DNA of 64,000 bases from Candidatus Eiseniibacteriota bacterium (lineage in GTDB: Bacteria; Eisenbacteria; RBG-16-71-46; CAIMUX01; WJJG01). The translations under genes were made by a program, and so were the position numbers. The notes below the pieces were generated by a model. That model worked only from the letters and a program-made list of their open reading frames with translations, searched no databases and was not told where the DNA came from. Of the stretch, positions 14,484 through 51,528 are shown piece after piece; position 1 is the first letter of the stretch; every line of letters starts with the position of its first letter. Location of the stretch: NCBI GenBank assembly GCA_023129715.1, contig JAGMBO010000029.1:31018-95017 (forward strand), written 5' to 3'.

Positions 14484-14511
14484 AACACCCCGTAGCCACC
14501 GGCGGGGTGTT
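14484..14511 (+). promoter_or_regulatory. Hairpin just upstream of the C25 peptidase start
   Basis: Perfect 9-bp stem (aacaccccg at 14484-14492 with cggggtgtt at 14503-14511), 10-nt loop, ending 11 nt before the ATG at 14523. There is no U-run, so it is not a simple terminator; a role in translation or mRNA stability is possible. Confidence 0.5.
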
Positions 14512-14522
14512 TCGGGGGTATC

Positions 14523-17500
14523 ATGACATCCGGACTCATCGCCTTCCGGCAGGCTCGGCAGACCCGATCCCTCGGTATCGGTACTGCTGTTCTGTTCCTG
14601 CTCATGCTCTTTGCGCTCCCGGGCGCGGCCCTGACCCGCTTGCCCTTGACGGCCGACGCCGAGTCGAGCCGGCCCGAGTTGACCCTGCTCGAGGCAAGCG
14701 AGGAGGGCGCACGGATCCTCTTCGAGCTTCCCGCGCTGGAGATCGAAACCTACCAGCTCGCCGGCGAGACGTTCCATGCGGCGCTCTTCGCCGGGTGCGA
14801 GCTGGTCGGCGCCGCGGGGCAACCGGCGCTGCCGGCGATGACGCGCTTCGTCGCCCTCCCATCGCGGGCGGGGGCACAGCTTCGCGTGCTCTCCATGGAA
14901 GAAGAGATCCTCCCCGGCTTCCGGCTCCTCCCGATGCAGCCCGACGAGGGAACGACCTTCGCCCAGGATGCGGCTGCCTATCAGAAGGATGCCTTCCTCG
15001 GGGGCGAGCCGGTCGCCGTCGGCGCGCCCCTGCTGATGCGCGGCCTGCGGGTGGTTCCGGTGACCTTCCGGCCGGTGCAGTACAACCCTCACCGTGGCGA
15101 ACTCCGCGTACTCCGTCGCGTCGAGCTGGCAATCGATTTTGCCGGAGAAGACCTGCGCAATCTCAGCCGGCGCGCATCCCTTCCCGCCTCCGCCGGATTC
15201 GATCCGCTCCATTGCTCCTCGGTGATCAACTACGACGCCGTCCGCGCCACGCGGGAGACCCCCGCCGCCGATCATCTCGGCACGTGGCTGATCATCTCGC
15301 GAGACAACTCCACGGTGCTGAGCTATCTCGAACCGCTTGTCGCCTGGCGCCAGCGCATGGGATACAACGTCGTCCAAGTAACGACCAACCAAACCGGAAC
15401 ATCGCCATCTTCGATCAAGAACTACATTCAGAACGCCTACGACACTTGGGACGATCCACCCGCATACATCGTGATCGTCGGCGATGCCAGCGGCACCTTC
15501 CCGATCGACACCTTCGTCGAGGATAACTCGGGCTACGATGGCCGCGGCGACCACCCCTATGTACAACTTGATGGCGATGATGATCTACCCGACGCCTTCA
15601 TCGGACGGCTATCCGCCCGCTACACCACCGAGCTGCGCCTGATCACCCACAAGATCGTCTCCTATGAGACCGCGCCCTATATCGACGGGCCTGACTGGTT
15701 CTCGCGGGCCTGTCTCATCGGCGACATCCAATCGGTCTCGGGCATTACCTGCATGCACGTGCAGCAGTGGCTCAAGGAGCGCCTCGTCGATCTCGGCTAC
15801 ACGGCGATCGACACCATTTGGAACATCCCCTACGTGCTGCAGATCGAACACTCGGTAGACCGAGGGGTCTCCTACCTCGGCTACCGCGGCTACTACGGCA
15901 TGAGCGGGTGGGATATCGGCGACATCTCTGCCACGCGCAACGGCCGTGGCATGATGCCCTTCGCCGTCAACCTGACCTGTGATACGGGCACCTGGTACTC
16001 GGGCACGGCGCGCAGTGAAGCCTGGCTGCTCGCCGGCAGCTATCCCGACAGCCTGAGCGGCGGGATCGGCAGCATCGGCACGGCGACCCCCGGCACGGCG
16101 ACGCGCTATAACAACTGCTTCTATGGCGGCACGGCCTATGGGCTCTTCTGGGATGATCACTACCAGATCGGCGCCGCCCACGCGCGCGGCAAGGTCGAGA
16201 TGGTGCTCAACTATGGCACGACGCACCCGTTGACGACGAACACCTACTGCCATTGGAACACCTTGATCGGTGATCCGGCCACCGAGATCTGGACCGCCTG
16301 GCCCCGCACGCTGGTTGTCGATCACCCGCTCGTGCTGCCGACCGGCGCCAACCGGACGGCGGTGACCGTCGAGGACGACGCGGGCTTCCCGATCGCCGGG
16401 GCGTGGGTCCATCTCTTCCAGGAGGGCACGATCTCGACCGGCGCCGAGACCGACGCGCTCGGCGAAGTCGTCCTACCGGTACCTTCCGGCGCTGCGGGCA
16501 CGGTCGCGATCACCGTCACCGGGCACAATCTCTATCCCTATCAAGGCGACATTCAGATTCAGCAGCTGACGAGATTCGTGGGCATGTCGGCCTACACAAT
16601 CGACGATGGGGCGATTTACCCCGGAAACGGTAACGGCAGCGGGGCGCTGAATCCGGGCGAGCAGATCGGCATCGAAGTTGAGCTTCACAACACCGGGCTC
16701 GTCCCGGCCTACGATGTCTCGCTGACGATGACTTCGGACGACCCCTATGCCGGGATCATCTCCGCGGGCCCCGTCTCCTATGGGACGATCTACGCGGGCG
16801 CGACGGGGACGCCCTCATCGGGGGATCTGGTCTTGCGGATCCCCAAGTCGACGCCGGATGGCCATGAGCTCGTCTTCGATCTCGCCGTCTCGGATCAATC
16901 CGGCACCTGGCAGTCCCGCCTCGCGCTGACCGTCCTGGCGCCCAGCCTGATCTACGAAGACCATGTCTTGACCGGCTGCGACGAGGTTTTCGATCCGGGC
17001 GAGTCGGCCGAGTTGACCGTCTCGTTGCGCAACGTGGGTGCGATCACCGCCCCGGGACCGATTTCCGCCTACCTGAGCTCGGACAACTACTGGATCCAGG
17101 TCATCGATCCCGATGGCACCTATGACGACTCGATCGCCAAGAACGACGACGCGACGAATAGCTCCGACCCCTTCGAGATCGTCGCGCCCGCCGATGCGAT
17201 CCCCGGCCAGCTCATTCCGCTGCGCCTGGCGCTCACCTGCGCCGATGGCTCCCAGGACACCGCGCAGGTCTTCGTGACCCTCGGCACGAAGGCGACGAGT
17301 GACCCGACCGGACCTGACGCCTACGGCTATTTCGCCTATGATCACACCGATGTCGCCTACCCCGAGGCGCCGGTCTACGATTGGATCGACATCACCGGCA
17401 CGGGCAGCGAGGTTGGGCTGACCGACTATGGATACGACGACGACGATTCCAAGGTCGTCGACCTTCCCTTTGTCTTCACCTTCTACGGCGAGGATTTCGA

Positions 17501-18287
17501 TCGGGCCACGATCTGCTCGAACGGCTGGATGGCGATGGGATCGACTTACCTGATCAACTACCGCAACTGGTACATGCCGAGCGCCGGCGGGCCCGCCTAC
17601 ATGATCGCACCCTTCTGGGATAACCTCCACCAGCACAGCAACGGCAAGGTTTACCATTGGTTCGACCAGGCCAATCACCGCTACATCGTCTCCTGGGACA
17701 ACGTTTGGAACTATGAGTGCTATCAGGCGGTCGAGAGCTGTCAGGCAATCCTCTACGATCCGGACCACTATCCGACCTACACCGGCGATGGCGTGATCGT
17801 CTTCCAGTACAAGCACATCAACCAGGTCGACTTCCAGCAGATGTACTCGACCTCCGGCATCCAGAACGGCGATCACACCGTCGGACTGACCTACAGCTAC
17901 TCCAATCGGCGCCCTCCCGGTGCGGTTTTCTTCTATCACCCGCTGGCGATCAAGTTCACCACCGGTAGCCCGGGCGCCGCTGCGGCGCACTCCGCGGGCT
18001 CCGCGCAGCCTAGGGTCTTCCTGGCGCCGAGCCGGCCCAACCCCTGTTCACGCGCAACGACGATCCGCTTCGGGCTCGATCAGCCCGGACCGGTCGGCTT
18101 GCGGCTCTTCGATCCTGACGGCCGTCTGGTGCGGACGCTGATCCGGGGCGTCCTCCCGCCGGGCGACCATGAGATCGAGTGGCAGGGCCGCGATGAAGCG
18201 GGGCACCTACTGCCAAGCGGTGTCTACTTCTACCGCCTCGAGACCGACGATGGGCAGCTCTCGCGCCAGCTCCTGCTGATGCGTTAG
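14523..18287 (+). CDS. Secreted C25 (gingipain-like) peptidase with FlgD-like C-terminus
   Basis: 1254 aa. Signal peptide, then a propeptide-like region (to ~250), the C25 caspase-fold domain (about 255-600), Ig/CARDB-like repeats, and a C-terminal FlgD-like sorting domain (RPNPC, PDGRLVRTLI, SGVYFYR, ending LLLMR). The nucleophile Cys486 (NLTCDTGTW) is present. The Gly-His-Gly expected about 33 residues earlier reads Gly-Tyr454-Arg455-Gly, so the usual catalytic His is missing. It may be an inactive homologue or a subfamily with another base. In gingipains such proteins leave through the type IX system; no such machinery is in this window. Confidence 0.82.
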   Translation: MTSGLIAFRQARQTRSLGIGTAVLFLLMLFALPGAALTRLPLTADAESSRPELTLLEASEEGARILFELPALEIETYQLAGETFHAALFAGCELVGAAGQPALPAMTRFVALPSRAGAQLRVLSMEEEILPGFRLLPMQPDEGTTFAQDAAAYQKDAFLGGEPVAVGAPLLMRGLRVVPVTFRPVQYNPHRGELRVLRRVELAIDFAGEDLRNLSRRASLPASAGFDPLHCSSVINYDAVRATRETPAADHLGTWLIISRDNSTVLSYLEPLVAWRQRMGYNVVQVTTNQTGTSPSSIKNYIQNAYDTWDDPPAYIVIVGDASGTFPIDTFVEDNSGYDGRGDHPYVQLDGDDDLPDAFIGRLSARYTTELRLITHKIVSYETAPYIDGPDWFSRACLIGDIQSVSGITCMHVQQWLKERLVDLGYTAIDTIWNIPYVLQIEHSVDRGVSYLGYRGYYGMSGWDIGDISATRNGRGMMPFAVNLTCDTGTWYSGTARSEAWLLAGSYPDSLSGGIGSIGTATPGTATRYNNCFYGGTAYGLFWDDHYQIGAAHARGKVEMVLNYGTTHPLTTNTYCHWNTLIGDPATEIWTAWPRTLVVDHPLVLPTGANRTAVTVEDDAGFPIAGAWVHLFQEGTISTGAETDALGEVVLPVPSGAAGTVAITVTGHNLYPYQGDIQIQQLTRFVGMSAYTIDDGAIYPGNGNGSGALNPGEQIGIEVELHNTGLVPAYDVSLTMTSDDPYAGIISAGPVSYGTIYAGATGTPSSGDLVLRIPKSTPDGHELVFDLAVSDQSGTWQSRLALTVLAPSLIYEDHVLTGCDEVFDPGESAELTVSLRNVGAITAPGPISAYLSSDNYWIQVIDPDGTYDDSIAKNDDATNSSDPFEIVAPADAIPGQLIPLRLALTCADGSQDTAQVFVTLGTKATSDPTGPDAYGYFAYDHTDVAYPEAPVYDWIDITGTGSEVGLTDYGYDDDDSKVVDLPFVFTFYGEDFDRATICSNGWMAMGSTYLINYRNWYMPSAGGPAYMIAPFWDNLHQHSNGKVYHWFDQANHRYIVSWDNVWNYECYQAVESCQAILYDPDHYPTYTGDGVIVFQYKHINQVDFQQMYSTSGIQNGDHTVGLTYSYSNRRPPGAVFFYHPLAIKFTTGSPGAAAAHSAGSAQPRVFLAPSRPNPCSRATTIRFGLDQPGPVGLRLFDPDGRLVRTLIRGVLPPGDHEIEWQGRDEAGHLLPSGVYFYRLETDDGQLSRQLLLMR

Positions 18288-25699: not shown

Positions 25700-26113
25700 T
25701 CAAATGTCATGGATTCCAAGCCGCTCAGCCAGTTCGGCATTCGCGGCCACCCACCGGCGAACCCAGCGCTTCAGGCCGAGGAATTCAACGAAGGCCTTCA
25801 GGTAGTCCGGCTTGAGTTCGCGCATTGAGGGTTTCTCAATGGCCTTGATTCGATACTGGGGCACACGCAGCTGCGCGGCAACGTCCTTTATGGACAAGGC
25901 TCGTTTCTCACGAGCCTCTTTGCACTTGGCTGAAAGCGCCATCATTCTGATGCTGGTCTCGGGGTCATGGCCGCTCGAATCGATGCCCGGGAATGACTGG
26001 GCGAGAAAGCCGCGCAGCTGCTTGGCCAAGGTGCGCACTTGCGAATCCGTTAGAATGGTTGTTTCCGTGACAGCCCTTTTCACTCGCGTCTCCTTGATGG
26101 CTGCAGGCCTCAA
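25700..26113 (-). CDS. XRE-family helix-turn-helix protein
   Basis: 137 aa. The Cro/C1-type HTH lies at about residues 62-115 (CKEAREKRALSIKDVAAQLRVPQ, in two parts around SIKDVAAQL). The start is TTG 26113, whose TTGA overlaps the stop of the preceding small gene; the alternative start is ATG near 25945, which would leave only the HTH part. The tail WVAANAELAERLG is typical of small regulators in this cassette type. It probably regulates its own operon. Confidence 0.72.
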   Translation of the reverse strand: MRPAAIKETRVKRAVTETTILTDSQVRTLAKQLRGFLAQSFPGIDSSGHDPETSIRMMALSAKCKEAREKRALSIKDVAAQLRVPQYRIKAIEKPSMRELKPDYLKAFVEFLGLKRWVRRWVAANAELAERLGIHDI

Positions 26114-26424
26114 TCTGACGGTGTGTTCTTGGCTCTCTTCCTTTCCGTCTTCCTTTGCGCCTGGCTGCCGGCCAATTCCTCGATGGAAACGGTGTTTTCT
26201 GGAGCCTCTCTCGCGAAGCGGTCACGGTACAGAGTCTGGATAAACTCTGGCAACGGCCTTTTCCAGGGTTCTTGATCGTGATTGGCGATGCTACCGAGTC
26301 TCTTGGGGTTCAGACCAAGTTCTCGTGCCATTTGGACATGAACATGCGAAAGGCGATACCGCTTCCGCGCCTCGATTCATAGGCCCAGCTTGCCGGAAAT
26401 GCGTTTCGGTTTGCATCGTGTCAT
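26110..26424 (-). pseudogene. Small conserved protein, N-terminus broken by UGA
   Basis: From ATG 26424 the frame reads MTRCKPKRISGKLGL, then TGA (26377-26379), then IEARKRYRLSHVHVQ and MARELGLNPKRLGSIANHD, ending at 26110. I recall intact relatives with ARKRYRLSHAQVQMARELGMNPKK and NHxQEPWK, so the UGA interrupts the family domain. CGA-to-TGA mutation is the simplest reading (homologues seem to have Arg there). The 73-codon part from ATG 26331 could still be made. Function unknown; it is regularly seen beside HTH genes. Confidence 0.6.
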
Positions 26425-26486
26425 GAGATGCCTTTCTCAGCCGGTATAGCGTACGCCTCAGCAAGCACGTTGCAGGCGATGGTCAT
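26421..26486 (-). CDS. 21-codon ORF linking two cassette genes
   Basis: MTIACNVLAEAYAIPAEKG and two more residues. It overlaps both neighbours by ATGA, so ribosomes leaving the gene at 26483 could restart here and again at 26424. It may be a coupling ORF or a remnant of a longer N-terminus; no function can be given. Confidence 0.3.
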   Translation of the reverse strand: MTIACNVLAEAYAIPAEKGIS

Positions 26487-26794
26487 GATTCTCTCTGATT
26501 CCATTTTGTGGCTTGCCAGTTGCGAATGATCCCGTTGTGTCCGCAGATGGGACAATGCCAGATGATTTCATCGGCTTCTGATTCTAGACGAGATAGAATT
26601 GATCCGGTGCATTCCTCTCATCGGCATCGCAGACCAATTTCGTCAAAGTCTGAGGATCCCGTCTTGGTGGTGGCATCGATTATGAGGACCAAGAAAGACG
26701 CAAGGCTGGCGGCAGGTTGCGGCAAATCGGCGGGCATCTCACCCGCCTCGTCAAGAAAGTGAGTGATGTCCGTTATGTACGTTCCTGTTCTCAT
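26483..26794 (-). pseudogene. Conserved zinc-ribbon-like protein interrupted by UGA
   Basis: From ATG 26794 (RBS aaggaagg) the frame reads MRTGTYITDITHFLDEAGE and on to GLRCR, then TGA at 26618-26620, then in the same frame EECTGSILSRLESEADEII and WHCPICGHNGIIRNWQ to the stop. Both halves together form one recognisable family with paired cysteines (RC...C, CPIC). The stop follows CGA and probably arose from another CGA. No SECIS-like hairpin follows it. 103 sense codons; function unknown. Confidence 0.65.
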
Positions 26795-49190: not shown

Positions 49191-51257
49191 CTACCGCAAA
49201 ACCACGATTGGCGCCCGGTCGTCCCCGGCAGCCGTCTGGAAGCGGATGTAGTAGACGCCCGCACCGACGGCGGCACCGCTCGTCGCACGGCCATCCCACT
49301 GCGTCACCGTCGTTCCCTGGCTCAGAGGGCCGTCGAGCAAGTTACGTACCAGACGCCCGTTCAGGTCAAAGACATCGAGACGCCCCGCCCGGCCGCCGGC
49401 TTCGTCCGAGATGCGCAGACGAACCGTGCTCATCCCGGCTCCGGCACCAATGCGGAAGGGATTCGGCGAGATCGCCCGGATCGCGGAAAGAGGCACCAGG
49501 CGAATGTCCTCGGTGACATCGGCGCTACCGCGCTCGATCACCCACTGCAGCGCGCTGGCGAGAAGTGAATTCAGATTGTCCGGATTGGGATCGGTCTCCT
49601 TGATCGCGTTCAGATAGCAGGCAAAGTAGACGACCCGCGCATCCCCATGATCCGCGCGGATAACGATGCCCTCGTCCTCCGGCGAAGTGAAGCAGATCGT
49701 CCCGGTGGCGTTCGGGATCATCTCATCCGGCTTGTCGTGAACCTCGGAGTTGTACTCGAAGTTGATCGCCATCCCGTCGCTGACCGGATCGCCCGGAACG
49801 CCGAGCAGGCTGTCGGCGCCGACATCGAGGAGATAGCTGTCGATCCCGAGATAGTCGGCAACGAAGATCGAGTCCACCGGACTAGACGAGGTATCGGCCG
49901 TATAGAGGTACTGCTGATAGGAGAGCACCAAGCCGCCGCCGGCATCGAGATAGTCGCTCATCAACTGAACCTCATCGACCAGCAGCATGCCGTTCTGGCG
50001 TCCGGGGTGCCAGATGACGGCGTCGTATTCGATCATCTCCTCCACGGTCGGCGCGCGGCCGCCGTAGCCCTTGCGCAGGTCCCAGTGCTCGTAGAGGTAA
50101 TTCTTCAGATCGAGAGCACTGAGCAACGGATCCTCTTCCTGGTGGGGATAGGTCCCGTCGTCGTCGACGAAGAGAATCGCCCAACTACCATTGAAGACGC
50201 ACCCCTTCTTCAGGGCCACTCGTCCGGACACCGCTGATTCGATATAGACGCCGCCCTCGCCGATCCGCACATCGCTGTCGGTCGTCACGCGCAGGTAAAC
50301 CGTCTCCGTCCCACCCGGATCCAGCTCCACCTCGATCGCGTCGGTGCCGTAGGCACCCCCTTCGAGCTTGAAGTCGGTCGGCCAGCCGAATGTATCGCTA
50401 AGCGTGAGGGTCAATGTGTCGGTCACGTCACTCGTGTTCTCCACCGTGGCCTCGAAGATCGCCTCGTCATTGCCGTCGAGCAGTCTGACCATCTTGTCGT
50501 CGTAGCTGAACGCGAAATCGATCACCAGGGGCAGGCGGGCCGCCTGGTACATGAGCAGATTGCCGCCCCCCTTTTGAACCCAGGCGACGCAGTGGATCTT
50601 CTCGGGGTCCCACTCCGGCTTGACATTGAAGTCGAGGGTGACCGTCGCCTCGTCGCCGATGTTGATCAGCTCGACGTACTGGCCCCCGCCCGTACGGACG
50701 ACGTTGTCGTAGTGTCGGCCGCCATACTGGAAACCGTCCTCGAGCACCGCCACGACGAGCATCGGGGTGTTCAGCGACACTGCCTCCTCGAGCTTCACCG
50801 TGGCCGAGAGCGAGATGGTCGTCAGGCTCATGGTATAGACACCGGTGACCGAAACGTCGGCCTGCCCCCCAGTCTCCGCGATGCGATTGTTGATCGTGGA
50901 GCGGTAGACGTTCGCGTTGGCCACGCAGCTCCCGTAGCTCCCGCCGATGTCGTCTCTGCCGTCGATGACCACCGTGGGATAGCCACCGGCGCCGTAGAAA
51001 CTCATGCGCTGGTTGCTCCACGGCAGGTAGTAGGGATCAGAAGCGCTGCCATGATACTCGACCACGATCAGGTCGTCGCCGAATTCGTCAATCATCATTT
51101 CGAGCCCGCACCGGGCATCGGGGCAGTAGCTTCACCACGTGGCGGTAAAGTCTTCGGCGAGGATGACCCGGTCCACCGATGCGGTGGCCGGGACGAGGCC
51201 CAGTAAGCCGAGGAACATGAGAGTGGCAAGAATGGGTAGGCCAAGCCTGACGCGCAT
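49191..51257 (-). CDS. Exported thioredoxin-like selenoprotein with FlgD-like C-terminus
   Basis: Reads from ATG 51257 (RBS aaggaggacggg) through an in-frame TGA at 51132-51134 to the stop at 49191: 688 residues if UGA is selenocysteine. Signal peptide 1-27 (LATLMFLGLLGLVPATAS), then EDFTATW-Sec42-SYC45: UGA replaces the first Cys of a thioredoxin WCxxC motif. The cis-proline loop GGYPTVVIDG (Pro94) completes the fold. Ig-like domains and a flavodoxin-like stretch follow, ending in a FlgD-like sorting domain (SPNPF, LNGRLVRNLL, GAGVYYIRF). Without recoding the signal peptide and redox site would be lost. It resembles Omp28/thioredoxin-like secreted proteins; a thiol-selenol oxidoreductase role is inferred. 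No sel genes are in the window. Confidence 0.85.
51101..51134 (-). promoter_or_regulatory. UGA codon plus bacterial SECIS-like hairpin
   Basis: Counting U of UGA as 1, the RNA pairs C15-G34, G16-C33, A17-U32, leaves U18 bulged, pairs G19-C31, C20-G30, C21-G29, C22-G28 (and G23-C27), with apical G23 G24 U25. E. coli fdhF SECIS has bulged U17 and loop G23 U24 on the same layout, so this one is shifted by a single nucleotide. SelB reads exactly these bases. Confidence 0.8.
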
Positions 51258-51528
51258 CCCGTCCTCCTTCAAGTTGAAGTACCAAGCGCCACCCTGCGAG
51301 ATGGCGCTCTGCTGCATGGACCCAGGAATTCGGCCGGGCCCCGGTCGAAACCACAAACACGATAATTATAGACGATCTTGCACGCGGGAGGAAAGAGGTT
51401 TAGCGCGTAGCTAGCACAACTGCAATAGATTGGCGGATCGGAGGCCGTGCACACAACACTTTGTTGCGGCTTGGGCACCGGGGGGGGGAGGGGGGCGTAG
51501 AAGCCGGCAAGACGCTCGCCTGCCCGGA

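Follow-up and report, generated by a model that had tools for sequence, protein, structure and literature searches.

Gene layout and reading frame

The gene described here lies on the minus strand, at 51257–49191, of a 64,000-nucleotide stretch of DNA from Candidatus Eiseniibacteriota bacterium. The whole stretch is referred to as the window, and all features of the gene are on its strand. Ahead of the final stop, TAG (49193–49191), the frame contained a single stop, the TGA at 51134–51132. It parted a short open reading frame (ORF) from a 635-residue ORF in the same frame (51098–49191, beginning at ATG 51098), and frame translation confirmed what a preliminary description of this DNA had said of the arrangement. 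The UGA (51132–51134) is codon 42 of 689 and is predicted to encode selenocysteine (Sec, U). If it is read, the product has 688 residues.

On read-through, residues 37–45 were FTATW-U-SYC, and a GGYPT loop appeared further on; both motifs had been pointed out before and were found in the translated frame. Cys45 (51123–51125), the second residue of the UxxC pair, was invariant in a 16-row alignment of homologues (A2). So was Pro94 of GGYPT (50976–50978), at the cis-proline position of the thioredoxin fold.

A Shine-Dalgarno-like AAGGAGG (51263–51269) was recognized by eye 5 bases 5′ of ATG 51257. Residues 1–27 (51177–51257) are a likely signal peptide, with MRVR, a hydrophobic core and ATAS, judged by eye and not by a signal-peptide program. 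A hydrophobic N-terminus resembling it was seen, also by eye, in 36 of 38 homologous loci, the exceptions, as started, being L081 and L113. The signal-peptide-like N-terminus proposed earlier was thus supported in this gene and in most homologues.

For structure prediction, Cys was placed at position 42 and 18 sequences were used (mean predicted local distance difference test score 81, predicted template modelling score (pTM) 0.56). Residues 25–246 (50520–51185) formed a thioredoxin-like domain and a beta sandwich, the fold of HBP35. They were followed by an all-beta, probably immunoglobulin (Ig)-like domain, assigned from predicted strands only (residues 248–355; 50193–50516), a GATase1/ThuA-like alpha-beta domain (residues 356–576; 49530–50192) and a C-terminal FlgD-type Ig domain (residues 592–688; 49194–49484). 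The last, which scored 32.5 bits with PF13860 (cut-off 27), is likely a type IX sorting domain. The thioredoxin-like fold and the FlgD-like domain of the preliminary description were both upheld. The rows of VIA-align fell mostly on residues 332–576, and the fold comparison barely covered the Ig-like (248–355) and C-terminal domains.

Alternation of Sec and Cys among homologues

A six-frame search of the 47 genomes of the phylum and a family search were made, and every listed locus that covered residue 42 was read (n = 38). Codon 42 was TGA in 25 loci and TGC in 13, and no other codon was found. The frame was kept on both sides of the TGA. The codons 5′ of it were conserved as protein, in frame, with the consensus VPxVVxxExFGATW. 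This indicated that the short upstream ORF belongs to the gene.

The recurrence of TGA or TGC at the same codon is accounted for neither by sequencing error nor by random nonsense mutation. This agreed with the earlier arguments that a mutation would hardly hit this codon by chance, and that homologues should carry Cys or UGA there. As the recurring UGA stood at the position of the first active-site Cys, a selenocysteine reading is very likely.

The 25 listed TGA loci covered all 11 genomes examined of the bacterial order. Matches beginning 3′ of residue 42 were left out, and the numbers of UGA copies per genome are lower bounds: at least seven in G006, at least four in G002, at least three in G008, at least two each in G003, G007 and G010, and at least one each in G000, G001, G004, G005 and G009.

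Several loci were noted for their arrangement. At L057 (G010:C172:6012-10204), two copies stood in tandem about 200 bases apart, one with UGA and one with Cys. Three UGA paralogues, two of them adjacent, shared one 39-kb contig (L066 and L111; G008:C143:7369-9272 and 25975-26715). In L110 and L111, which represent a divergent UGA subfamily, FTSTTUGGCA replaced the motif FGATWUxYCP.

An initial scan of named contigs with the single protein found no relative. With the near-relative alignment, 30 loci were found, of which 17 were read; in the other 13, the query match started beyond residue 42. Four of the 17 repeated phylum loci, and one (L123) did not have the position visible. The 12 further loci consisted of 2 with UGA and 10 with Cys.

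A tree was built, the Sec/Cys column being masked, from the N-terminal domains of 43 loci: 37 of the 38 phylum loci, the sequence of G003_C1022 being too short, together with six of the further 12. Seven changes of state were needed, five of them forced by well-supported branches, against 13.6 with shuffled labels. The Sec/Cys state was clustered on the tree, yet had switched repeatedly. L067 and L075 had UGA within a clade whose other members carried Cys (6 of 8 rows); their SECIS-like hairpin, with loop CGGGAUY, was in another register, 23 nt from the UGA. They possibly represent an independent switch from Cys to Sec.

In the protein collection, this product (P0002) and all seven near relatives (P0003–P0009) were listed only from past the UGA position; among P0002–P0009, the TGA itself was read in DNA for P0002 and P0009. 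A more distant Cys relative (P0010) was listed complete, with its N-terminus and TATWCPYCP. This indicates an annotation fault, which leaves P0002–P0009 without signal peptide and active site.

The hairpin and the decoding machinery

The bacterial selenocysteine insertion sequence (SECIS) model, as outlined in the relevant part of PMC13188914, has a loop of 3–9 nt with a G within the first two positions and a stem of 4–16 bp, placed 16–37 nt past the UGA, with a minimum free energy of at most −7.5. It was run as our own implementation. The hairpin of this gene (51101–51120) satisfied it, with loop GUG, spacing 20 and −11.6 kcal/mol. It consisted of a stem GCCC/GGGC, an apical loop GGUGC (51112–51108, 19–20 nt past the UGA), a lower stem and a bulged U. 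Of the loci with UGA, 25 of 27 satisfied the model, compared with 4 of 13 with Cys; among 1500 in-frame stretches sampled from UGA genes, 424 did so.

Eighteen of the 27 loops could be aligned in one register. Pairing was found in 90.3% of cells; shuffling lowered this to 79.4%, and sliding to 62.5% or less. Pair 21-29 was C-G in 11 of the 18, G-C in 6 and U-G in 1, and the C-to-G half of this swap was a silent change at the third base of an Ala codon (GCC to GCG). G006_C417 and G010_C183, UGA members of another subfamily, had the hairpins CACCUC/GAGGUG and CGCUUC/GAAGCG around CGGGAUY. An Rfam scan of the 64-kb window gave no match, which says little because bacterial SECIS elements vary from gene to gene. 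No tRNA was found inside the window.

The source genome (4.83 Mb, 186 contigs, 96% complete) contained SelB at 317.9 bits (cut-off 242), SelA at 537.9 bits, two SelD genes over cut-off, and a tRNA-Sec with anticodon TCA at 68.8 bits. The machinery named as a check in the preliminary description was therefore present. These genes, the SECIS-like hairpin, and a UGA aligned with Cys in homologues between conserved flanks are marks of a bacterial selenoprotein. Of the 47 genomes of the phylum, 40 had SelA over cut-off and 37 had SelB; the tRNA-Sec search covered the source genome. Presence of SelA and SelB did not part UGA genomes from Cys genomes, and most of the phylum carries both.

The second SelD gene (G000:C138:42670-43593; L088:1671-2594) had an in-frame TGA of its own within a GAGUASK stretch, which we take to be the known Sec site of SelD. 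One of the two SelD proteins of this genome is thus likely itself a selenoprotein. About 3.8 kb before the window start, an 867-residue ORF (G000:C109:24650-27253; L089:4651-7254) appeared to be a desulfurase-SelD fusion, with a cysteine desulfurase-like PF00266 domain, a low-complexity linker rich in Ala, Gly and Asp, and a full SelD (PF00586, PF02769). It is predicted to combine selenium delivery and selenophosphate synthesis within one protein. Cysteine desulfurase-like genes have been found near orphan selD genes, according to the part of PMC5029168 that deals with them.

Interpretation and known relatives

We consider it quite probable that the UGA is decoded as Sec through the downstream SECIS-like hairpin. 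The resulting 688-residue protein, likely exported, would probably serve as a selenol/thiol oxidoreductase at the surface. Selenocysteine decoding at UGA42, taken by itself, appears highly likely, and the sequence points to an exported thiol/selenol oxidoreductase as the likely product. The computed basis was the UGA, the decoding genes, the alternation of Sec and Cys, a hairpin found in almost every UGA locus and a predicted structure with an HBP35-like fold.

When the ribosome reached UGA42, the hairpin would recruit SelB with Sec-tRNA(Sec), and translation would go on; without SelB recruitment, the product would be a short signal-peptide fragment only. The signal peptide would take the protein over the inner membrane, after which it would fold. 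The type IX system would then carry it across the outer membrane, recognizing the C-terminal Ig domain. At the cell surface, the Sec42-Cys45 pair may exchange with disulfides, or reduce oxidized thiols or peroxides. Binding of a partner or substrate probably falls to the middle domains.

A number of results weigh against this interpretation. Two of the 27 UGA loci (G003_C347 and G008_C143b) failed the SECIS model, and at the stricter threshold of −10 kcal/mol only 15 of 27 passed, compared with 202 of 1500 sampled stretches. The Fisher tests on the hairpin counts (6e-12 and 1e-4) ignore relatedness. The same holds for the codon bias at the Arg-Cys loop, where CGG or AGG was used in 16 of 16 UGA members, compared with 41% of all Arg codons in UGA genes and CGC in two Cys members. 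Covariation was carried by one base pair only. Shuffles reached the observed count of pairs changed on both sides in 480 of 500 cases, and that of further pair types in 332 of 500; the base bulged out below the stem was not conserved among relatives. No second in-frame TGA was found between the chosen start and the gene end in any of the 25 UGA loci, but each start had been set 3′ of any earlier in-frame TGA. In G003 (68% complete), which has UGA copies, no match to SelA or SelB passed its cut-off; G006 (75% complete), with the most listed UGA copies, had SelB but only a fragment of SelA. The relative placement of the domains is uncertain because the prediction used Cys42 and 18 sequences and gave a pTM of 0.56. 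Among nine ORFs neighbouring the gene, no partner was found (RND transporter, glycosyltransferase-like, S4, GNAT, NUDIX and FGE-sulfatase-like).

The search for type IX components covered SprA and PorU, and both were over cut-off in the source genome (492.5 bits, with neighbours, and 484.3 bits), so that translocon and sortase are present. The tail of this protein scored 19.7 bits with TIGR04183, below the cut-off of 23, which also counts against type IX cargo, and 12 of the 16 A2 members matched this model at E 0.001 or better. The PorU model gave 52 matches in the source genome, 40 of them restricted to its C-terminal part (position 957 onward), as expected if many proteins carry such a tail. 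A wider protein search with A2 added mainly proteins having the C-terminal domains in common. We infer type IX export and surface display of the selenoprotein from these sequence matches with about even confidence.

The protein might instead be a selenoprotein of the periplasm or outer membrane, acting there as a thiol-disulfide enzyme or a peroxidase without type IX secretion. This would fit the low TIGR04183 score and the occurrence of FlgD-type Ig domains outside type IX cargo, as in FlgD itself. It would also fit the short UGA paralogues (270–370 residues), for which a tail match was noticed only beside G008_C143b, among the listed matches, the others being untested for the tail. Set against SprA, PorU and the TIGR04183 matches in A2, we consider this alternative unlikely, though a serious one. 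Elsewhere in the window, 18030–18248 (G000:C109:49047-49265) matched the C-terminal part of the PorU model. This is the end of a 1263-codon frame on the plus strand (14496–18284), and a second protein of the window may bear such a tail.

The alternatives to Sec decoding itself fared worse. If the UGA were a true stop, the downstream ORF would be translated alone, in the cytoplasm, from an internal start, such as the ATG 51098 from which the product is listed. The protein-level conservation of the upstream codons and the Shine-Dalgarno-like sequence ahead of ATG 51257 spoke against this. The short product would also lack signal peptide and active site, yet retain export-type domains. We rejected this reading as very improbable.

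Decoding of the UGA as Cys or Trp by an altered code or a suppressor tRNA, without selenium, would agree with Cys being the residue that alternates with UGA, and UGA is read as Cys in other organisms. TGA, however, terminated 9 of the 27 long ORFs of the window, and the UGA genes have this single in-frame TGA. The genome encodes a tRNA-Sec with a TCA anticodon and the full Sec machinery, and UGA loci had the hairpin far more often than Cys loci did. A change of code was rejected as scarcely credible on these grounds. A nonsense mutation or a sequencing or assembly error, in a pseudogene or a misread Cys gene, would explain a lone TGA, one base from TGC, in an otherwise intact frame, but was refuted by the same-codon TGA in 25 of 38 listed phylum loci from 11 genomes, in frame on both flanks, and in 2 named-contig loci, and its probability is close to nil.

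A bolder reading takes in a whole order of Eisenbacteria. A multi-paralogue family of Sec thioredoxins, with a minimum of seven UGA genes in one genome, would then be placed outside the cell via type IX, hidden by listed starts after the UGA. We put this forward tentatively, at somewhat less than even confidence. As Sec needs costly dedicated machinery, seven or more UGA copies of a redox family that is likely exported, all in the incomplete genome G006, suggest that this bacterium depends heavily on selenium-based reactions beyond the cytoplasm. Should the type IX route prove right, we know of no earlier selenoprotein that takes it. If the order-wide reading holds, extracellular selenium redox chemistry would proceed by a secretion route unlinked to selenoproteins in the papers found. 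Our literature search, made mostly without subscription literature and judged largely from titles and abstracts, found no paper on this Eisenbacteria branch and none tying selenoproteins to type IX secretion; the main text of PMC12013277 (deep-Sep) contained neither 'Omp28' nor 'Eisenbacteria'.

Weak similarity was found with the Omp28 family (PF11551, NF033782, PDB 2r2c) over residues 87–243 and 25–175. The scores, 23.5 bits against a curated cut-off of 34.9 and 36.2 against 150, fell short, and 2r2c gave E 0.13.

The closest selenoprotein precedent was the 'hypothetical protein GOS_C' of Zhang and Gladyshev 2008, described in the pertinent section of PMC2398784 as a UxxC family with a thioredoxin-like fold, SECIS-like elements, and 74 Sec and 312 Cys sequences. 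Table 1 of the 2026 review (PMC13188914) equates it with NCBIfam NF045500, Omp28-related selenoprotein. Our protein resembles it in the UxxC within a thioredoxin-like fold, the alternation of Sec and Cys and the SECIS-like element. The NF045500 model matched all 16 A2 members (16 of the 38 loci), and this protein scored 57.1 bits. At the cut-off of 200 bits the model caught none in the 47 phylum genomes, which adds to the annotation fault. The Eisenbacteria branch has GATase1-like and FlgD-type C-terminal domains.

HBP35 of Porphyromonas gingivalis (PDB 5y1a) shares the N-terminal thioredoxin and beta-sandwich fold with its redox pair, at 19% identity in the structural alignment. Unlike this protein, it has Cys for the predicted Sec, is 344 residues long, lacks the middle domains and binds hemin. 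As reported in the sections of PMC2907840 concerned, HBP35 reduces insulin via C48 and C51 and needs its last five residues for outer-membrane delivery, and it already exemplifies the Cys-type architecture, in which a thioredoxin domain is exported and a sorting domain stands at the C-terminus. The preliminary description had called the protein undescribed, which holds only in part. With GOS_C/NF045500 and HBP35 as precedents, the kind is therefore known; what is new is the divergent multi-domain branch with its domain set, its order-wide spread and expansion into paralogues within single genomes, and the likely type IX route.
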